Part shown: piece after piece, positions 10,471 to 54,900 of the stretch
Layout of the letters: each line of letters starts with the position of its first letter
How positions within the stretch are numbered: position 1 is the stretch's first letter
NCBI GenBank assembly: GCA_004123355.1
Contig: SCHM01000002.1
Coordinates: 7,165,569-7,229,568, forward strand
Direction: 5' to 3'
Source of the DNA: Amphirosellinia nigrospora
Taxonomy: Eukaryota > Ascomycota > Sordariomycetes > Xylariales > Xylariaceae
Length of the DNA stretch: 64,000 nucleotides
Notes under the pieces: generated by a model
The model's input: the letters and a program-made list of their open reading frames with translations, nothing else
Databases searched by the model: none
Told to the model about the DNA's origin: nothing
Position numbers and translations under genes: made by a program

Positions 10471-11398
10471 TTATTCAAACCGACCACTTCCTTGCCCATC
10501 CTCCCAACCGAAAGGTTCAACATAGTCTCCGACCCCCGCCATCATCGCATGCTCGAGCCAGCGCGCGTACGCTTCGAACCCGCTCGTGCCCCGTGACCCT
10601 GGCCGTCCTGACACCCCTCACGCCCTCGAAGAGGCGTAGCGCGTCGGGGCCGGCGCCCCGCCACTCGGCCTGCCACACCTCGACGACGACCTCGCTCTTG
10701 CCTGAGAATTGGGCCGTCACGGCCTCGCGCCCGAACTGCGGCTCCGGTCCAGGCGCAGGCGCACGCGGTACCGCGTCACGAGCGACGCGAGCGAGGCGCT
10801 GCGGATCGGCGCGTACGCCTTCCGCGGATCGCTGGGGCTGAAGAATGACGGAATGTGGTCAGGAGGGAGGTGTGGGCCACGAAGGTGTTGCTCCTGTAGA
10901 GGACCCGGGTGCATTCGGCGTGGAGCTGTCGACACGCGCGGAGGATGTTGGGGTGGAGGGGTAGAAGGGGACTTGTTGGACGAAGAAAGGGGCGGGCGAT
11001 GGGGATGAAGAGGAGGAAGGGGTGGGACCTCCGCTCAATGGGTGTGGCGCTGGTGGTCTTGGGGTGTATCGTGGCGTGGTGAGAAGATGTGCGTATATCT
11101 CGAGCCGAATCTCGAGAGGAAGACTTAAGAACGTAGGCGATTGGCGTTGCGATGATGATCCAATGGATACCGGCAGCACTACGTCATCTCCCTCGTCCTC
11201 AACTAATCCGGATTTCACATCTTGTCCCGAAGGACAGGATGCCATTAGCCCGGTGGTACCGGTGACTTGGCCCTGGATTGCGAAGAGTGGTTGCGAAGCG
11301 GGATCAGTGGGTTCGACCGAAGGTGTGGAGAATCCGGTCCCGAAATACGGCGTGTCTCCCCTTTGGTCTAAGATATCTTGGCCCTGCAGCTCTGTCAT
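10471..11398 (-). pseudogene. 2EXR/F-box-like fungal protein, frame-broken
   Basis: The minus strand starts MTELQGQDILDQ and carries FLSLPLEIRLEIYAHLL, the N-terminal helix-turn signature of fungal 2EXR-type proteins of unknown function. The homologous blocks then continue in successively different frames: ILRACRQLHAECTRVLYRSN, then PIRSASLASLVTRYRVRLRL, then VVVEVWQAEWRGAG, then YARWLEHAMM and a stop at 10471-10473. That is about four frame changes in 0.9 kb, with no in-block stop codon. The region is very GC-rich with Ser/Pro tracts. Either the gene is decaying or the assembly carries single-base indels. The family call is reasonably sure from the order of the conserved blocks; the function is unknown. 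Confidence 0.7.
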
Positions 11399-11971
11399 CG
11401 AGCCGCTGCGTTCCCGGGTCTTATACTACTCGAAAAAACACAGCTACCAGCCTAGAACAGCCGAGCCACGTTGGAGGGATATCTTTTCGTTGTTGATTTG
11501 TGTCGAACTCCTCCATATAGGTATTGCAGCTAGTAAGACCGGATGGAACTAGGCCCGGCCCCGTATCTTAGGTTCTCCGATTTAGTGAATCTCCTCGTCT
11601 GTGTTGACAAGGTATAAAATCTCAGGGTGAAACCAGCGGCCTGATTTCGTTTTAATATGTAGATCAAAGGAGTTTAGATGCTCAGCTGGCGGCATTAGTA
11701 CCTACCTGGCGTCTTATACGGCCGAACGGAGGTACCAGTGGAGCTATCGGGAAATTCCGTTATCATAAGTGGTGAGATCAACAACCACAGGAACAAAGCC
11801 TGTGAGATCGTTCTTTCAACACAAGTACTTCATAAGTGAGCTATAATTCTATCTTAATCCCTATTTAGAACCAAGTTTCTGCCCGACAACTGCCTCAAGT
11901 CGTTCGTCAACCCGTTCACGTTGAAAGAATCGGCATAGAACAACAACTCTATATTAATAGTACTTAAGTAC
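11399..11971. other. Intergenic region
   Basis: It lies between the start of the 2EXR-type gene and the end of the hydrolase gene, both on the minus strand. I see no supported gene or repeat. The part next to 11399 should hold the promoter of the 2EXR-type gene. Confidence 0.45.
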
Positions 11972-13764: not shown

Positions 13765-15327
13765 TTAGTGCTGCTCCGCCATACTCGCTTGTATTTTCTC
13801 CACAACTTTCGGATCAGTTAAGTCGGCGGGCTCTTCGCCGCGAGCTATCTGCTGTAGTACACTGTAACAAGGGCAATTAGTGATTGCTTCCTTAGAGAAG
13901 GACACGATGAAGTCCGGGAGTACCAATCACTCCGAATGTTGAGGTATAGATGTAACTAGTACGGGCGGTCTATTCCCCTAACGGTGGCTAAGTCAAGAAA
14001 AGGGGATCGTGGCGGTACTTACTAGCTACTCGTCACCAGTAGGTCGACGAAGTTATTTTCTGCAATTGACGACTTCATCGCGCCTGTGATTTTACCCGAC
14101 AGGATGTCGGCTGCGAGAGAGGGCTCTTGTAAGGCGGCGCGCCCAATACCCAGACCATCAATGCCCTCAAGAGTCGAATTCACTGCAGCAATTGGAGTTA
14201 GTGGTCACGAGTTTGGGACTATTCGGTAACTGCCTGCGAAGAGTAGAAATTTTTTGAGACGGGCTGAACGGAGGAACTTGTGCGCCCCCCAAGAGACTGA
14301 GCAAGAGAAAAGAGGAGCACCTACTTCCGCCTACAGTTTTGAGGCCACCGGTGGTATACACCTTAAGCTTATCAACAGCCTTTGCAATCTGCTCTGCGAA
14401 TTCGACAAAGTAGTTCTCGCGCACCACAGTGCTCTCCTTTTTATGTTCGAACCCTAGACTTTCGTATGTGCCGCCACTGGTCTCGACGTAGTCGAAGCCG
14501 GCTTTCTCCAGCGCTTGACAAAGTACAACGGCCTCCTCAGGAGTGAACCCCTTCTCTTGAAATTCGACTGAGTTGATCTTAATGCCCAAGATGAAGCGCT
14601 CGCTGACACGTTTCTTAATAGCGGCCGCGATTTCTAGGACAAGCCTCATCCGGTTCTCGAGGCTACCTCCATATTCATCCGTTCTCTGGTTCGTTACTAA
14701 ACTTAGGAATTGTGCGATAAGATAGCCGTGGGCACCGTGGAGTTCTATTCCATCGAATCCAGCGCGCTCGAGGTACTCTGCTGTATGGGCAAAGCCTTCG
14801 ATGACGTTGTCGATATCCTCTCGAGTTGCCGCTCGGGGCACGCCGAATTTGCCCATCCCTTCTACAACTAGCTGAACCGCGCTGGCGCTGATAGGATGAG
14901 GCTGTAGAGCCGCTGGTGCCTGTCTGCCAGCGTGACTGACTTGGCCCACGATCAGGCTCCCGTGGCTCTTCCCTGCAGCTGCAAGTGCGGCGAAGGCCTC
15001 GAAACGTGGTCCGGAGAACTCGGACCCAATGGGAACGATCGCATTGCCGGCTGCCTCGAGGTCGGTGTAGGTGAACTGGATGTTTCCAGTAAGGATCTGG
15101 CCCCAGCCGCCTCGAGCAAAGCGGGCGTAGAAATTAATCAGCTGCGGCAACGGGATTCCACGGGCCTCGAGGTTCTCTTCGTCAAAACTCGCCAAACGTT
15201 CAGACGTCGCGGCCTTGAGGAATCGGTTTGGCGCCGTACGTTTCGAGAAAGGGAAGACCAGAGGCTCAGCCAGGCGCCCTACGTCGGTGCTTGTAGAAGG
15301 CCAACGGGGAATGACACGTTCTGACAT
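13765..15327 (-). CDS. NADH:flavin oxidoreductase, old yellow enzyme family
   Basis: FMN-dependent ene-reductase-type enzyme with a TIM-barrel fold; physiological substrate unknown. Exons are 15327-14325, 14182-14023 and 13861-13765. The joins restore GG-M-NSTLEGIDGLGIGRA at the first junction and TSSYVLQQIARG at the second, giving 419 residues. Diagnostic segments include PFSKRTAPNRFLKAATSE at the N-terminus, VGQVSHAGRQ, the GIELHGAHGYLIAQFLS active-site stretch, NQRTDEYGGSLENRMR, and the FMN-phosphate GGLKTVGG and GLGIGRA region. The second donor overlaps an apparent TAG stop, so a model ending at 14022 would miss the last 33 residues. The frame is intact. The upstream neighbour, a short-chain dehydrogenase relic, may once have been part of a redox gene pair, but that is speculation. 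Confidence 0.92.
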
Positions 15328-15954
15328 ATTTGCTGTTATTGAACTTGTGGTGATATGGATGGAATGGGACAGGATGAGGAGCTGATTCTGCTGTTCTCAT
15401 TTTTTTTTCCATCTCTGACGTCCATTCCATCCATTTTATATACATGCAGGATGGATGATCTGACGTCGGGTCTTCTCGTCTCAAGTGCCGCCATACTACC
15501 TCCTTTGTGTTATTCCGATTACCATGGCATCGCGTGTTTTGACGTGATGGAACATTATCGACCCGGCTCCTGACAAATGAACGAGTGCCTTGTGGATAAT
15601 TGAAGATAGTCTCCTCACCTTGTCGGCGATCGAGGTTATTGGCCCACTGGCAAACTCCGGCCGGGCGGCTCCCGGACTACTCGAGCGAACGCGGTTAGGC
15701 TGAATTTAGCTGTACCAATTCGGAGAGATATTAGACCGGTCTGGACACCCAAGGACGGAGAACTGGATTATATGTATTTTCCACGGAACTCCTTGAAATA
15801 CGGAGATGCAGTCAGGTCTGACTCACCACATCAGAGCCTTACATAACCTACAATCTGAAACTGCAAGGCCTGCCGTTCTGGTCCCTTGCCTACATAGTAG
15901 TAGCACATCGAGACTGGAAACATACCACCTTAAGCCTACTCGGCTTTATGTTAC
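15328..15954. other. Intergenic region upstream of the flavin oxidoreductase
   Basis: It holds the presumed promoter of the minus-strand flavin oxidoreductase gene, including a T-rich tract near 15400. No other feature is supported. Confidence 0.4.
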
Positions 15955-18018: not shown

Positions 18019-19665
18019 TTAAACTCCCACGTTCACGGGTCCGACTTTTTCCCAGTTCAAATAAGTGCTCGTATCGCTTGGGTCGCCCTGCCATGCCCAC
18101 TCTATGATTTGAACGCCAGCGTCGCCACCGGAATCGACTACGCAGTATATTCTCCGACCTGTGTTTACCGCCATCGTGGTCCTCGCCTCGCAATCCGCTA
18201 GATCTTTCACCTGGTCTGTCCCCGTCGTCCAGGTGGTGCCTTTGAGGTACGTCAGTTGGACGCCGTCGCCGGCGTCTGGGTCGATGCTGAGTACTTGGAA
18301 GCCCAAGGGGGTCGGGTTGTCCGAGTAGCTCTCGTTCCAACCTGTCGAGAAGGCCGCAAAGCCGGTGCGTGGCCCGATATCCCGGCCCACGTACGTCGGA
18401 ATGGTCATGCTGTTGCCGAGCCGCAGTTGGGTCAGCCCGCTTGTCTTCGATCGGTAAAAGAGATTGAGGCTGCGGCGTAAAATGGCACCGCTATCCCCAA
18501 TAAGCGTCCCGAGTACGTGAGCGTGATTGATGTGTTGGTCGATGGCGCCATCTCCACGTCGATTAAGTTGGCGGTCTTGAACCCACTTCCGTCATTTTCG
18601 GCCATGAATAGGCCTTGCTGCCCTTGCCAGAAGAAGTATGTGAACTGGTTACAAAAATTGCATTGCTTGCCATAGGAGATGAGGGAGGATCCTGGCAGAG
18701 AGTTGAAACCGCTGGCGGCAGCCACTGACGCCCAGCTATCAGATGGTACTTTTGATGTTGTGGATATTTGTTGGCTGCTGCTGTAAGCCAGGACATGATG
18801 GTTGATGCTGACCCATTGCCCTGATAGTAGAGGTGCACATCGGGACTCTGTAATACATAAGACCGTATTAGCATGCACCGCTTTCTCTCAAAACTTAACC
18901 AATTGGTTGAGGGATAAAAAGAGAATAGGCTCCTTACATTAGTACCTTCCCAGAAGGTGTCGAGCGCAAGAGAAGACCCAAGCTTTATGCCTTCTTCCGT
19001 CCCATTGACAATAGTCGACACAGTCCACTTATTCTTCGATGAATTGAAAGCAGACAGGGAGATTGAGGCGTCGCTTAGCTGGTATACGACTAGGAAATTA
19101 TTGTTTCCATACGCGTCGGTGAAATTCGCGGAAGCGAGTCGCGTGTTATTATATAATGTTAGCTTCGCTGCTCCAGTCCCATTATTCGTGTTTTCTTGCC
19201 CGTCGTTCCCGCTATTCCCGCTATTCCCGCTACCATTGCTGTTGCTGTTGTTGATGCTGTTGGAAGAAGTAGAAGCATGACCGCTCTTCGAGCCCACCAC
19301 AGCACCGACGACGACGGCGATAACGACCACGATAGCAACTCCAAGTGCTATCCAGAAATATCTCCGCCGAAGTCCGCATATCTTCGCCCCTTTCGAACCG
19401 CCCGCGACGCCATTATTATCGACTACTTCCGGTATGTCGAATAGTGTTCCGTTGGTGCTACTTGAGAATATCCCGCGATGGGTAGTGATTTTGCATTCTC
19501 CTGGCCAAGTTCGGCCGGCTGGTCGGTTTTTTGAGGGCCATAGTAGCCGTAGGCCTCAGGTATTGAGGGCGGCACTACCTCCGGATATTTGCCCTGTCTG
19601 AGAACATCCGCATCTGTAGCCACCTCGAGTGTACTATATTGATCTCTGTCGGATGGAGCACTCAT
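18019..19665 (-). pseudogene. Membrane-anchored fucose-specific-lectin-like gene, degraded
   Basis: The predicted product has a cytosolic N-terminal region (MSAPSDRDQYSTLEVATDAD) and one strong membrane segment (IALGVAIVVVIAVVVGAVVG). A Ser/Asn/Gly linker follows, then an extracellular beta-propeller-like domain. The blades show motifs such as DTFWEGTN, LNLFYRSKTSGL and TGFAAFSTGWNESY. This architecture and these repeats match fungal fucose-specific-lectin-like (AAL-type) proteins. One intron, about 18844-18937, is visible with GTAAGG and TTACAG ends. The reading frame is interrupted about three times, so it is either a decayed gene or affected by assembly errors. The fold call is good; sugar binding is inferred from the family. 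Confidence 0.72.
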
Positions 19666-21174
19666 CCTGCCAGCGTGCCGTTTATCAAACGTCACGGGTT
19701 GAAGTTGGGCATAATACCAGGCAAGCACAAAAAATGAAGGAGTGAAGTTGAGCGTAAGCACAGCAGGACAAAAACCTGATCATGATATCCGCAAAAGACA
19801 TCTGATCGTCGTATAGGGTACCATAATCGACCCAGGCCCCCAGGCGACCTAGTGTACACACTAAGCCTTCATTGCGGTGCAGAAATCCTTCGAGCGTTGC
19901 TAAGGGGGAATCACGTTCCAGAATCACCGAATTGGAAACCTAGACTAGCGTAGGCCGAGGGCGCAGGGTTCAATTTCCACGATTTCCAATCACATTGGCG
20001 GTATAACTGGGCCGAGCTGGAGTCGATCTTGCTGCGCTTACGTTATCTATGTCCGAGACTTTAACTAGTTAGTGTAGCCTAGGAGCCCATCTGGTTAGGA
20101 TGATGCACTACTATGGTGTAGGGCTTAAATCCTTCATCACGCGACGTGGCTAGTCTGAAAGACGGTTTACCTCTTCTAGGCAAGACTCGCGAAAACATAT
20201 ACGACAATGTTTCTAAAATAATTGACAGCCCGTCCCTATGCACGCCACATTACCCTATAGGGGTGAGGTAGCTTGGTCTAGCCTCAACTGCCGATTGTGG
20301 TTGACATTAGTAGAGCTATTTTGGGCCGTGGCGCGAGGCAACCGGCCGACATTTTTAAGGTTAACATATAACTTGCGTCGCAACAGATTGGTTAACCTCC
20401 GAACGAGTTCTCCTCCGAACCCCCAAGATAGGCCTAAGAACATACAAAGTATGTAAGAACTAGAATGCATACTACTCTGTATATGTATAAACAGAACTAT
20501 CGGCCGGCGCGTTCCCAGGTTCCGGTTAGGGGCTGTCAGAAAGATCGTCACCTAACCTCCCAAAGTGAACTAGTGGTGGATGCTAATCAAACATGGGTCT
20601 GACACGTTCCATTTATGCGCAGATTGAACGGTCTGGCATAGTCTCGGCAGGTTCCGTCAACGGACACCAGCAAGCTTCGAGTCTCAACACGGCTCAAGCG
20701 GCGAGAAGGAATAGCTGCGCGTCTCGGTTCAGGCCATACGGCTAGGAATACGGCTACGATCCCGTCCTATCGACTTGGCACTAATATCTACCTACTTTAC
20801 AATACTTAGATATATGGCACCCAGTACAGAGTAGACAATTCATTCATCTTGGTAGTCTCTCCTAACTTGATAGCAATAAGGTTTGGGCTTGGTACTGTAC
20901 TAAACTCCGGGGTCCAGAAACAGTGAAACACTGTCAATTGACCGTTTGAATCATTTAGCGCGTTGATTGAAATAAAATACTTGAACGACTAATTCGAAAG
21001 TTTTAAGGCGGTAAAAACTTCAAAAGTTGAAAATCGTGATGAATACAACACAGGGAAAAGGTGTAGGCACCTGATCTGCTGTATATTGGAAGCTAATATT
21101 GTCCTTGAGGAAAGGAAGTAAAGTCTGGGTATGTTCACTTCACACAAAATAGAAGACGAAGCTCTAAAAACAAG
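19666..21174. other. Gene-free region left of the MITE
   Basis: It holds the upstream flank of the lectin-like gene, then AT-rich sequence without a supported gene. The open frames are short and unrelated to anything I recognise. Confidence 0.45.
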
Positions 21175-34730: not shown

Positions 34731-37700
34731 ATGGCTGCAGGACTCGATGAGTTAATCGAGTCGCTCCTGACTGAGATCGCCTTCTCTGGCGTTCGGGGTA
34801 AGTCTCTAGACAGTTTCGCAAAGCTCTGATCGATTCGCACCATATGATTGGCTGTCCTGGAGCATCAAGACTCGCCTTCAGGATATGCAGCTAACAAAAT
34901 ATTAGGTTGTTCGGTACCTAACCTGCTTATTGCAATTGACGCTTTCTACAAATCGCCAGGTGTCGGAAATCGGCATGGGGACGCTGACTTTCCTCAAGTA
35001 ACCACGACTTACGATGACACCGTCAAGTCTCAACATATTGGCGAGAAGCATGACTTTGCAGTTGCATCCAAGGTATGGAAATGGCTAGCCGACAGGTCAG
35101 ATGTGTCAATTGGCGTCAACAGAGTGTGCAATCATTTGTCCCTGGAAGAAGTATTGGCCTTGCCTGAAGAAGAATCTCCATCTGAAGCAGCGGTCGGATC
35201 CGCGGGTAGGCCCGGTGCGAAAACACAAGCTCTGGCCCGTTCAGGGCTAAATCCGCGTGTGTCCAAAGATGAGCCTCCGACAGTGAGACCAAGACTTTTC
35301 GTATCTGAAGAGCGTCAATGGAGAACGATTACTGGCCACGGGCCGGACTTGAAGCGAGTGCCACTCTTCGAATGGCGAGCACTTGTTGATATTGCTTCCG
35401 TCAAGGAAAAGGGGATCCTCCAAGGTGACCTTGTTCGGCTTACTGGCCAAGACAAGAGGTCTCTACCAACCCGGACTGATGCGTTGACAAGGAAAGGATA
35501 TATCATTAACAGCCCATAGTACTCCGCGGCGGAAAATCTAGTAAGCTCTGGCTTGCTCAATTCTCCGAGCATGCGAAAGAGCACCAAGAACAGGAAGGCC
35601 TAGATTACGATAAGATCGACCTCTCCAAAGCAGCTCTTACCAGTGACCTGCATCCAGTTCCCTTTTGCGATAAGTGGAATGGGGAGACAATCGATTACCT
35701 TGCCCTCGCCCAAGCCTTTGTAGCTATTGTGAAGGCATGGGTTCTGATCCGTTACTGCGATGCTCGTGCAAAGCTGGGTGTTGAGGAACGTGTGCGCCAA
35801 ATGCGGGCTTTGGCAAAGACGTGCCGTTGGCTGACTAACATTGGTGCCTTGTCTTTCGTTGGTGCTAAGTTTGCTGGAAGTAACAGACTTTTCAAAGACT
35901 GTGTCAAATTCATTCGCGATCCCTCTCCAGCAGAATGGTCTCATTTTCGGGCCACTCCCAAGACTCGGATGGTGGTCCCATCCGGTCGCATTGGGAAGCG
36001 CGGGGAGGCATCTCGTGCTGTTCACGCATCTCAAATAGGTGGGTCTAGAGGTAAGCCTGCAGTGAAGAAACCTCAAGGAACGAAATCTCGAGGCGATCCT
36101 ACGCCTTTTGCTAGCATTATTCCCCTACCATGGAAGCCGCAGAAGCCCGTACCAAACACCGCTTTCGAAATCATCAAAAGGGCAGGTTCCAAAGGCACTT
36201 CAAACGCAGCTATATGTCGACAAACCTTAGGCTATAACTATCGTAGGCTTACAGCAGCGATGACGGGATCAATTTCCATGCCTACCAATTCCCAACCCCA
36301 ACACCTAAAACATCTGAGCTCATCCTCACAACTAAGTCGAATCGGTAAAACTATGACATACACATTTTATGCGAACAGCGAAATTGCTGGAAACAGGCCG
36401 GCTGAACAACAGATACAAGCCTCCGGCGTTGAGGCAGATACGTTGGGTTCAACGAACGAAGCAAACGATATAGCCATAGGTCAAAATAGTGGACTATTTC
36501 CACAGCCTGACTTGAATAGGTTCACAGCCAATCCTAGTTCGCCGCTCACGGAGCTCACCCGAACCAAACAAGCGGCCCGAATATCTTCGAAAAGCTTGAA
36601 GCGCAAATGGCCGACAGATGAAGAGTCAGATGATCACCCCCAGTCAAACTGCCGAGACGTCTAGGGCGTCGACCTACGAAACGGATAATAGAGGAGCCAT
36701 CGCCCAAGCTAGCTGAGGAGCATCCACATCCCGAAGGCGACGATTTTTCTTTCACCACTCAACAGCAAATCATCACAGATCAGCGGCCACAGCCTGAGAC
36801 GTCTCAATCAACGCTCAGACCCCCTGGCGTTTATCGCGGTGTTCCAAATTCCTTAGATCCAGTGACAAAAAGAAAGGGTAGACGGCGAAAGTCTTTAGTT
36901 CTCATATTCAGATCCGATAAACTTAAAAGCCCGTCGTTCTTGGGGGCACCTCTGTTACAACTGGAGTAGACGGCCCGGATACCTCGAGCCGTGAGGTTGC
37001 TACTGAAAATACTCAAAAGAAGCCCTCAATTCCCACTCAAGACGCGCACCCAACAGATACTTTAAGTACCACAGTAGCAACGCCAAGGGTTGCCAGCAAA
37101 GGTCCGTATAAACAATACAGGACACCAAGATCCGGCAAAAACGGATCGTTTCGGTGCCAGAAATGCGGAAACAGTTGGAAGAACTCGAACGGGCTGGAAT
37201 ACCATCTCACTAAGTCTAGGAGTGTTTGCAATCCAGACTTTGTCCCACCTTCGTCAGAACTTTTTCATCACCGCAAACGTAAGACCGCACAGCCTCAAGT
37301 ATTAGAGCGTTCTTTTGTACCACGCCTAGCATCTAAAGTGAATGGGAAGTCTCAGCCGCCTTCGACTCCGAAAGAACAAATGCAGTCTCGGATCAGAAGG
37401 AGGACACCCCCTCAATCGCCTACTTCACACAACATATCCCATTCGATGGCTTCTTCGTTAAATAAATATACACCTTCCAGCTTACACATCAGAGATACGC
37501 TTCAGTCTCAAGCCCTTCCTAGCAGCATCGTGCTGAAAGATCTAGAGGTGTATGATGCAACTAACCATCGACCTCTCCGGCGTCAGCGAAAGTCCGGCCC
37601 TAACAGGGAAGCGTCCACGAATGACGCCAACGATGCAGTGGCGGGCGCTCAATCATCCTCTATAAACGCCCGTCCATCAGTCGACGCCAATCCCGCTCTC

Positions 37701-40700
37701 AACGGTCGGGCCCGCCATGTTGATACTGATAGTTGGGGAACAATACCAGCCTATTAACCAATTGCCCAACGTGGACAGAGGGAAAATAAATTCTAACGGC
37801 AAGAACCCAACGTTTCCCGCGGCGAATAATGGCTTCGCCATTGAGCAAGCTGAGGTGTCTGGAGACAGCTTACCCGTTACAATATCTACAGACCGTTCTA
37901 TTACCCGTAAACCGCTTCCAAGCTTCCCGCCTAATAAGCCCGGCGTTTCTGGCTGTTCGACAGAAACTGGAAACACAGTCAAGAAATTTGGCGTTTCTAT
38001 GCTACCGGTACAGCCCCCCATGATGTCACAGTTCAGCAGTCGGCACATAAGTCACTCGCCTCTTTCGCAAGGCCGACGCGACCAAAGGCATCGTTTGGCG
38101 CCCGCCGGCGAGACCGCACTATACAGATTATAGAGTATCTCTTGGAGCAGAGCGAGGGCGTTTTTCCTGGGCTCCGGTCCTTATTTATGGCAGTTATCTC
38201 CGTGTGGGTTAAGGAGTTTACGGATCTTGCGCCTCCCGACCGAAGAATTTGTCAAAACGTTGTTAACCAAATGGAAAGAGATGGTCTACTGAAGCAACTG
38301 CACTTTTTCTTCTTCGATGATCAAGCTAAGATGCAAGAATGCGTCGTGTTGGCGAACGCCGATACGAGCAGCGGATCAACTGTAGACTTAACAGATGACC
38401 CTCGGGTTATAGCTGTCAAGGGGAAAATAAGGGAGATGTTTCCTGAAGCCTATGTCCCAGATGCTTTCTCTCTCTCACCGGACGAAGCTAAGTTGTTTGA
38501 CGAACTTGCATCCCAAGGCAAAGAGCACAGCCAGACACGAAGCTTAAGAGCACCCAAAGATCTGAAAATGGTCCAGGACATCGAGGTTCTCAGGTACGAC
38601 GATTCCGTGATGGATGATATTTCAATCCATAAGAGCAACGGGAAGCGACAAGCGGATGAGGTGCAGATCGAAACCCAACCCCTATTGAAAAAGGCCCGCA
38701 TCGAGGTTGACCAACCAGATTTCCTCGAAAGAACCCGAAAGCAGCGTAGGAGACCTGATAAACATGAAATGTGGGACAGTGGCAAGTTAGCTGTCTACAT
38801 TTGGAGTCAGAGGCAAAAGCCCGGAGTGATGTGGGATCAACACCATTCCTGTCTTCAAGATCCCATGACCGGAACTTGGTCCTGGACGCCAGACACTGAT
38901 TCTTCTCAATTGGGTGATATAACCACGATCCTGTCTTCCGTTAAAAGTGCGAGGCATGTTGATGCATCTCTCAAACGATTGGGCCGCAGAACGAGTAATA
39001 AGAAGCATCGGCATAGTAGGCGAAACAACCAAGCCCTGGCTAATACAACTGATATTCCAATGGCTCATGAAGATGAGTATAACAGTTTGATTGATCCCGC
39101 TCTCAGGGCATATACTTCTATTCCATTCACAGCTGATGGCCGAGCATCCGGCGAAGGTACCGACATGTATGACGACAGTAGCGAAACATCCGATGACGAA
39201 AATGCTCGTTCCGACATTTCTATCGCAGGCAATTCGGCAACAGAAATTATCCATGACAATAACCAAGGAAGCATGGCCGAACGTCCCGGGTTCTCTATTT
39301 GGTGCTGAAACAAACCCCGCCATTATTAGTTCAAATCCAACCGCTTTTCGGCTTTCAAAAGACGGCCTACCACACGATTTCCATGATATTATAAATACAA
39401 CACGTCGTGTCTACTCATTCAAGAAATGGGCTGATCCGGCGTACGGCAAATTCTTACGGGACCTGAAGACCATTAGGAGGTGGGAGCAATCAGTAGATGG
39501 ACCTCAAGCTGTCATGCATGGAACGATAGCATCAAACCACGCATATATATCCCTTACGCTCGAAGAAACCGAAGCAAAATCAAAGCCTATGGAACTAGAG
39601 TGGCTAGCCCTAATCAACTAACCGCGGACAACATACCCGATGAAGTCAAGAATGTATCACCGGAAGAGAATTATGGCCTAGCATACCTCATTACGGAAGG
39701 CCAGAAGACCAAAGATAAAAAACGTCATAGTAGAAATTTGGGATACAAGACAAGAGGACGCCGGGCCAACAACCATCCGAAGTTGAAAATAGCCTCTGAG
39801 AGACGCTCTGGTCAGGCTCAACCCGCTGCACCTCAATCTTCAGTATCGCCTACACAGCCTGAAGGATTCATTGAATACAAGACCCGAGACCTCACTATCA
39901 TACCTAGACAGCCCAGGGGCCGTTTCAATAAACCCACAGCACACGATGAGAAACTAGGCTCGAAAAGAGAAGATGAGCTTCTTGCTGCCTGCGTTGTCTT
40001 CAGGACACTTCTCGGTGGTCTTGATAGAAATTTGGATCTGGGCTTACTACTTAAACACTTTCCAGGGATGTCTCTATCTGCCATCAGGAAGTTCTGGCCC
40101 AGAATCAGTCGGGAGCGAAAATCCTATGTCCAGGCCTTGACTACAAAGTTCCAGTCGGCATTTTTAGTAGCTTACGAGAGTGGTAAGCTACCACCACTTG
40201 ATTACGATGATATCGAGAACTACGATTGGCCAAGACTAATCCTGTGGGCGACTCAACTCGAAACGCACGAGGAGGTAGATCTACCAGAATCGCGAGCGAC
40301 ACTATTACAAGAACACCTGGTCGAGGATATAGCCAATGAGGCTGCTGATTGGAGAGAAACTTGGTTTTCTACTACTTCAACATACAATCGAATCGAAGCA
40401 GTCGCAAGTGAAACGATGTCTATCCCTCTGCCGCCAAAGAATATACAAGACAGAGTGGTACTAGACCGTGCTCGAACGTGGGTTCGCTCAATTTGTTGCA
40501 CTTCACTAAAGGGTGTGAATGTGAGAGAAATGCTCGTTCCCAAGCTTCTTGAATTGGGCGACGGAGATGCGGCCGAGACAAATCAAATACTCGAGAAGGC
40601 AGTCGCAGAGCTTAACAGAGAAAAGGTTATCACAAGAACTAAAGGAAAAGATCTAGGGGGCAACTTCAGGATACATGGCATGTTTTCCAAACAGCTTGAG

Positions 40701-41364
40701 AAAATGGCTGCCGCACCCAAGTTCAGGCAAGCCATTGCTTTCAAAGCCCAGCTCGACGAGGTTTTCCGCCGAAGCAATGAACACATGATGCCATATGCTT
40801 CTGATGACGGGTCAATTATGGCTGTGTTAAACCTACAAGCCTATGGTCGAATACGCATCGACGCAATCGATATGCCTAACATCCCTTTTGGCTTCGAGCC
40901 TGGTAACTACGAGGGTAGAACTTTCCCTAAGAGCTACTACCACTTCAAGGTCCGGCTTGTGCCAACCGAGACCTACCTATTCAATGACGATATGGCGCTC
41001 CTCAAGCAGGCTCAAGGGATGGAGCCACCAACTCAGGGCCGGGAGGGAAAATACCCATCTGGGTCGACTTTTTCGGGAATGTGAATGCTGCTCGTTGGGC
41101 CGACTATGTCAGCATGGTGATTTTACACTTGCAATCAAAGGCCCCATAATACCTAAGATGTGTGTCACTCTACTAAAACCTATGATCGAAGAATTCGAGG
41201 TTCAGTTGATTGTAGACTGGCTCGATAGGCTTGGTCTTATACATCAAGCTGTGGAGGACTGTGGCGCCACAGGAGCGGAGTGGTGGTGGCTTGTTGCTGG
41301 ATACATCGTCCAGGCCAATGATGATAGCACAGAGAAGAATAAGGCGTCCGAAATCACTGCCTAG
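34731..41364 (+). CDS. TFC3: TFIIIC largest subunit (tau138/Tfc3-like), frame-interrupted
   Basis: Subunit of RNA polymerase III factor TFIIIC that reads the B-block of tRNA promoters in the nucleus. Exon 1 (34731-34797) encodes MAAGLDELIESLLTEIAFSG; the intron ends at 34905. The B-block-binding winged-helix region is visible as FEWRALVDIASVKEKGILQG and TRTDALTRKGYI near 35370-35500. A Zn-finger-like FRCQKCGNSWKNSNGLEYH lies near 37150. Large conserved blocks follow, including IIEYLLEQSEGVFPGLRSLF (38120-38180), PGVMWDQHHSCLQDP (38820) and IPLPPKNIQDRVVLDRAR (40425). The stop is at 41362 after an EWWWLVAGYIV block. The frame changes near 35515, 36660, 36930, 37730, 38120, 39300, 39600 and 41080, with intact blocks between. 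TFC3 is essential in yeast, so these are probably sequence errors unless a second copy exists. Confidence 0.82.
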
Positions 41365-53161: not shown

Positions 53162-54900
53162 ATGGATAGAGCCTTGTCGCCGTCGCTAGCAGCATCCAGC
53201 ATGTCGCGACGGTGGGCGCGTCGGGTCGAGCGTTATTGTTGTGGTTGCCTGACATACTTCCCACTCGCTTTCGTTTATGGGCTCACCACCTGGGCCGTGT
53301 GGGTTGTCGTGAGCATCGGTTCCTTTCCCGCTTCCGAGCAGGGGGGGCCGACATGGACCGGTAAGGAAGCCTTCTCTTCTCTTCTAGATCGTCTCTATCC
53401 TCCCGCCCGCTTCCTACCGGTTGCATTTCGGGGTTGGGAGAGGTGGTAGACGTGCTATTGACTGCGTGACTGACCCGGCCATAGGAACCGGCTCATCTGT
53501 CGGCGGCCTCGTCCTCTACGCCATGTTGAACTGGTGCTACACCACGGCCGTCTTCACTGACCCCGGCAGCACCACCAACAGTATGGGCTACTCGACCTTG
53601 CCGACCGTCACCACGCCGAGCGCATCCTCCTTCACCGTCAAGTCGAATGGCGAGCTGCGGTTCTGTAAGAAATGCCAGGCGCGGAAGCCTGATCGCGCCC
53701 ACCACTGCTCGACCTGCCAGCGCTGCGTCCTGAAGATGGACCACCACTGCCCCTGGCTGGCCACCTGCATCGGGCTCCGAAACCACAAGGCCTTCTTGTT
53801 GTTCCTGATATATACCACCCTCTTCAGCTTGTACTGCTTCGCCGTATCTGGGACATGGGTCTACGACGAGCTGTTGAGCCAGACACAGTATACGAACACC
53901 GTCATGCCCGTCAATTTTATTCTACTTGCCGTTATCTCGGGCATCATCGGCCCTTGTGGTCGGTGCTTTCACTGGTTGGCATATTCTGTTAGCCTCCCGC
54001 GGGCAGACCACAATCGAATGCCTCGAAAAGACACGATATCTGAGCCCGCTACGGAGGACTTTACAGCACCAATTTGTAGCACAACACAATGGTGACGGCA
54101 TACCGCTGCCCAAGTACGGGCAACAACTCCTGGACATGCACGCAAACGCGCTGCCTGGAGTCACCCGTCCAGAAGAAGGCGAAGTCATGTTATCCAGAGA
54201 CGATCGAATGCCTACTCATGCCTCATACGAAGAAATGGAACGGCACCGTGCCCGCAAGCGTTATGAGGAGTACATGGATGAAAAAGATTCGGAGAAGCTA
54301 CCAAACGCTTTCGATGTAGGGGCTAAAAAGAATTTGCTACACCTATTTGGTCCCGTGCCTTTGCTTTGGGCCTTGCCCATAATGAACACCACTTGGGATG
54401 GTTGGATGTGGGAGCCAAATCCTAAGTGGGTAGAAGCCCGGGAACGGCTTGCAAACGAGCGTCAAGCTCAGCAACAACGAGAACGCGCCGCTGGATGGGG
54501 ATTGCCCGAAACACCCGTGACTCCGTCTTACCCAGATCAACCTAAGGGGGCTGGTAGACATTATTTGGCATCGCCGATATCATCTACCGGTCGACGGACT
54601 CCCTCCAAAGCAGACCGCATTCTCGGCCGAGATCCTAATCTATACGCCGACGAGCCAACGAATTCTGTATCAATGAAAACATTAGATCGAAACGGCCGCA
54701 CTCTCAGAAGCGACCTGGATACGATTAGTGATGATGACGAGGACGACGTCAAAGTAAATGCGGAGCACAAGGCCATGGACGTCGTGACGAACGGCGCCTG
54801 GGCTCGGAATGGAGCTAGTGGCTTGTTGAGGAAGCCGACTAGACAAATTAATAAGAGCCCGCCGAAACATGTCCCTCAAGATGATGACGAGGTAGATTAA
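53162..54900 (+). CDS. PFA3: DHHC palmitoyltransferase (Pfa3-like)
   Basis: Integral-membrane protein S-acyltransferase; Pfa3 in yeast acts at the vacuole on Vac8. Exon 1 (53162-53360) encodes MDRALSPSLAASSMSRRWAR and the first membrane segment (YFPLAFVYGLTTWAVWVVVS). Exon 2 begins at 53485. The zinc-binding DHHC cysteine-rich domain reads RFCKKCQARKPDRAHHCSTC and CVLKMDHHCPWLATCIG. The catalytic DHHC is near residue 152. Two more membrane segments follow (AFLLFLIYTTLFSLYCFAVS and NFILLAVISGII). The frame then changes near 53950, where SGIIG should continue as LVVGAFTGWHILLASRGQTT; a one-base indel is likely. TTxE appears as TTIECLEKTRYLSPLR. The long acidic C-terminal tail ends VPQDDDEVD at 54900. 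Confidence 0.88.

Follow-up and report, generated by a model that had tools for sequence, protein, structure and literature searches.

Frame changes in a TFC3/tau138-like gene of a fungal assembly are very probably consensus errors

At 34731-41364 on the forward strand of the DNA analyzed here (the window; 64,000 nucleotides, C4:7165569-7229568, part of a 48.1-Mb assembly in 11 contigs), a TFC3/tau138-like gene is laid out as consecutive open blocks, with the reading frame changing from one to the next. We conclude with high confidence that it is a single gene with one normal intron and nine single-base consensus errors of what is probably an under-polished long-read assembly, and the phenomenon is almost certainly an artifact of a known kind and biologically ordinary. 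The decisive evidence for the consensus-error reading lies outside this gene, in essential genes elsewhere in this assembly that are broken alike. Judging by gene content and introns, the source of the DNA is probably a filamentous fungus.

The gene comprises about 2,170 codons (6,526 coding bases) and has ten frame boundaries, of which one is an ordinary intron and nine lack a convincing one. Its parts are as follows.

34731..34797, + strand: exon 1 of the TFC3/tau138-like gene, with an ATG start (from the sequence; its end is the scored splice site)
34798..34905, + strand: spliceosomal intron of 108 bases (GTAAGT, branch GCTAAC, TAG), which accounts for the first frame change
34906..35519, + strand: block with the B-block_TFIIIC domain (PF04182, E = 2.9e-13); frame change within 35510-35519
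35510..36664, + strand: open block of 384 codons (open frame); frame change within 36634-36664
36634..36969, + strand: open block (open frame); frame change within 36927-36969
36927..37757, + strand: open block (open frame); frame change within 37666-37757
37666..38133, + strand: open block (open frame); frame change within 37938-38133
37938..39308, + strand: open block of 456 codons (open frame); frame change within 39091-39308
39091..39621, + strand: open block (open frame); frame change within 39477-39621
39477..41084, + strand: open block of 535 codons with most of DUF6581 (PF20222, E = 1.5e-99); frame change within 40988-41084
40988..41149, + strand: short block continuing DUF6581 (Pfam match, profile 357-390); another frame change before 41149
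40831..41364, + strand: final open block, in use from about 41.11 kb up to the stop codon at 41362-41364

The blocks of 384, 456, and 535 codons, counted from stop to stop, are probably much longer than random openings would be. Neighboring blocks overlap at all nine intronless boundaries, and hence there is no stop-rich gap anywhere between them, as a preliminary description of this DNA had stated. That description had also recognized a TFC3-type gene split over changing frames on this strand, which the open blocks and the Pfam matches confirm; it had put the shifts at about eight and the blocks at about nine, and while the multiplicity of shifts stands, the actual figures are nine shifts, ten blocks, and one intron.

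Two family matches identify the product. The Pfam domain DUF6581 (PF20222), which we take to be the conserved C-terminal region linked to tau138, covers profile positions 3-360 in the block 39477-41081 (E = 1.5e-99, 334 bits) and resumes in a different frame at 40988-41146 (E = 2.4e-7, profile 357-390). Within the block 34848-35516, B-block_TFIIIC (PF04182) matches 35367-35510 with an E value of 2.9e-13 (50.1 bits against a cut-off of 22); the domain falls in the N-terminal third of the product, as expected of a tau138 protein, and the account of tau138 in PMC3945056 describes the B-block as region II of four. Comparison of the B-block piece with solved structures gave two weak matches (E = 0.027 and 0.029), both to yeast tau138 (8ffz_B and 9gc3_A), and three other pieces gave no meaningful match to solved structures. 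The B-block domain is N-terminal in yeast tau138 as it is here, where a single gene was found, but the yeast chains in the PDB have 1,160-1,201 residues against the approximately 2,170 codons here, and the sequence match is weak. A Pfam scan of those remaining blocks that were submitted recovered nothing above the cut-off; thus, the earlier proposal that every block carries conserved tau138 sequence holds for the B-block and DUF6581 blocks and finds no Pfam match over the cut-off in the others scanned.

A second TFC3 locus, which would have favored a decayed duplicate, was sought in four ways. No further copy was recovered from the 11 contigs with the PF04182 profile, from the assembly with PF20222 (both of whose matches belong to this gene), or from the whole assembly with either the 384-aa piece encoded by 35510-36661 or the 3,144-base DNA piece 37938-41081 as the query. 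The locus at 34731-41364 is therefore the only TFC3/tau138 copy found by these searches in the 48.1 Mb. In yeast, all six TFIIIC subunits are essential, as stated in PMC4490372.

Unrelated essential genes carry breaks of this kind as well, with 21 in the CCT/chaperonin, HSP70, and Rpb2-like families and one more in the Tau95 subunit of TFIIIC. The CCT complex is likewise essential, as are RNA polymerases I and III. A break was defined as two adjacent matches to the same family that abut in both the DNA and the profile yet are read in different frames, whereas intron-like pairs show extra bases between the matches. In CCT/chaperonin genes (PF00118), eight breaks fall in 5 of 10 gene places over 14.2 kb of matched sequence; two of the eight, both in one gene, rest on wide intervals. 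HSP70 (PF00012) has 10 gene places, distant and weak matches among them; six breaks fall in 4 of these, over 11.7 kb matched, and three HSP70 genes (L028, L029, and L030) all change frame in one conserved stretch, at profile positions 457-461, where there is a run of five to six C's. Seven breaks were found in two of the three Rpb2-like genes (PF00562): the RNA polymerase I subunit RPA2 has five intronless breaks in 1,057 bases, and the RNA polymerase III subunit RPC2 has two in 1,069 bases. Tau95 (PF09734) has its one break in its single gene. Neither PF00133 nor PF04998 yielded a clear break, and in these two families two matches contain 12 and 6 stop codons and another contains 4. The DNA at the 21 CCT, HSP70, RPA2, and RPC2 junctions was viewed in three frames, and three pairs were excluded from the counts: a CCT pair at C4:2608698-2610112 (excess of -31 bases), an HSP70 pair at C4:3144026-3145311 (excess of 38), and a weak PF00133 pair at C4:6327664-6328373 (excess of 2).

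The break rate in TFC3 is 9 in 6,526 coding bases (1.38 per kb), against 21 in 29,126 bases (0.72 per kb; P = 0.08 for the TFC3 excess) in the CCT, HSP70, and Rpb2-like families and 22 in 42,745 bases (0.51 per kb; P = 0.016) in all six control families pooled. TFC3 is thus worse than the average, with RPA2 being denser still. The direction of the changes is shared: 7 of the 9 TFC3 breaks correspond to one missing base (or two extra), as do 17 of the 21 in the CCT, HSP70, and Rpb2-like families (Fisher P = 1.0) and 18 of 22 once Tau95 is included. Of 28 junction intervals, 8 are touched by a run of at least five equal bases where 1.98 were expected, a number that none of 4,000 random placements reached, whereas runs of at least four touch 11 intervals against 8.2 expected (P = 0.14), which is not above chance. 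For this test the TFC3 intervals were taken from a weak coding model and the control intervals from match edges, and 2 of 30 junctions with overly wide intervals were dropped. Many of the breaks sit at runs of just two to four bases. Across 224 kb of sequence, A/T runs are not shortened, and G/C runs of at least five are mildly scarce relative to a simple model used with no control genome (for G runs of at least six, 14 against about 30 expected).

Could the frame changes be introns overlooked by a simple reading? One of the ten boundaries is indeed an intron, and introns are usual in these genes, as the control genes have 10 intron-like gaps, 8 of them with an excess of 52-68 bases (the other two have 152 and 38). 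At each of the ten boundaries, we listed frame-keeping GT..AG candidates 42-260 bases long whose donor lay no more than 400 bases from the end of the upstream block, and scored donor, branch site, and acceptor by simple ad hoc rules of our own. The intron at the first boundary scored 6.6, the best of 25 candidates. The best candidate at the second (35283-35512) scored 4.4 but would delete the entire matched B-block stretch, and the best scores at the other eight boundaries were from -0.2 to 2.4, which leaves nine frame changes without a convincing intron. In DUF6581, moreover, the family match runs across its boundary without a gap. Missed introns are therefore a very unlikely account of the whole set, although one or two might conceivably hide among the middle blocks, which lack homology support. 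A home-made coding-potential model allowing for both introns and frameshifts exchanged most of the known shifts for poor introns, placing two shifts inside TFC3 and missing 36662-37445 as coding; it was judged unreliable, and the family matches were used in its place. True decay, with a second intact copy or another factor standing in for TFC3, might be suggested by the higher break rate of TFC3 relative to the pooled controls, but no such copy was recovered from the 11 contigs, the blocks overlap with no stop-rich gap, DUF6581 still scores 334 bits, and genes indispensable to any fungus are broken in the same way. With no second copy found and other essential genes broken, we reject decay as highly improbable, and the earlier preference for assembly indels over decay is upheld by the same two observations.

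The involvement of several unrelated genes and the preference for one direction would also suit programmed ribosomal frameshifting used throughout the genome, as in Euplotes. Nonetheless, an in-frame slippery heptamer, as looked for under minus-one frameshifting, is present in only one of the nine TFC3 intervals, and the DUF6581 homology departs from the upstream frame near position 41030, about 50 bases ahead of that frame's stop at 41082; on these two grounds we reject this explanation as exceedingly unlikely. The account of Euplotes in PMC10235951 has frameshifts occurring at stop codons, and most of the changes here would seem to need a backward step and not the plus-one step of Euplotes. 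Were the indels real and decoded by the fungus across RNA polymerases I and III, CCT, HSP70, and TFIIIC, its genome would have to be read in a non-triplet fashion throughout with no stop-codon signal, to which we attach a vanishingly small probability.

According to the consensus-error reading, TFC3, the B-box-binding subunit of TFIIIC, would presumably be intact in the living fungus, and its nine frame changes would be single-base consensus errors, mostly lost bases. Such errors would be spread over the assembly and probably stem from insufficient polishing of long reads. As a fungus could not live without all of these proteins, the fault would lie in the sequence and not in the genes. Long-read-only assemblies, as described in PMC7500977 for Drechmeria coniospora and in PMC12007338 (the Kastor study), are similarly contiguous, with short indels that split conserved genes and are enriched at base runs. 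In the nanopore-only Drechmeria assemblies, fewer than one-sixth of 305 conserved genes were reported as full-length, and in the bacterial long-read example of the Kastor study false deletions made up the majority of the indels, comparable to the dominance of the missing-base direction here. In contrast, the polishing reported for Drechmeria added more insertions than deletions. The position of many of the present breaks at short runs is a further difference from these long-read-only assemblies. In the genes examined, coding sequence is interrupted by 0.5 to 1.4 frame breaks per kb, and at that rate it is unsafe, without read support, to claim gene loss, pseudogenes, or split genes on the basis of this assembly.

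Several other loci in the window and the assembly were noted. The DHHC palmitoyltransferase gene at 53388-54897 (+ strand) matches PF01529 up to profile position 105 of 133, and a second open frame overlaps it at 53878-54092; it looks to be broken in the same manner as TFC3. At 10779-11425 (- strand), a DUF7730/2EXR-like gene is in two pieces in different frames, covering DUF7730 profile positions 2-26 and 81-109, with all matches below the cut-off. The match of an FMN oxidoreductase (PF00724) at 13768-15396 (- strand) ends at profile position 300 of 342 and is followed in another frame by a peptide that, by eye and with no Pfam match, is a plausible C terminus, reached through either an intron or a break. 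The region 18022-19698 (- strand), with open blocks overlapping in three frames and no Pfam match in the three pieces scanned, is possibly another broken gene. Neither a tRNA scan of the window, run with bacterial settings, nor an Rfam scan gave any match. Beginning 10 kb past the window end, the stretch C4:7239569-7249568 has 30% G+C, compared with 46-53% in 15 other sampled 10-kb stretches, and fits an AT-rich isochore. Finally, small contigs of 1.4-1.5 Mb hold the core genes RPC2 and HSP70 (loci L021 and L028 on contig C8 and L027 on contig C7), indicating that these contigs are not simply dispensable chromosomes.
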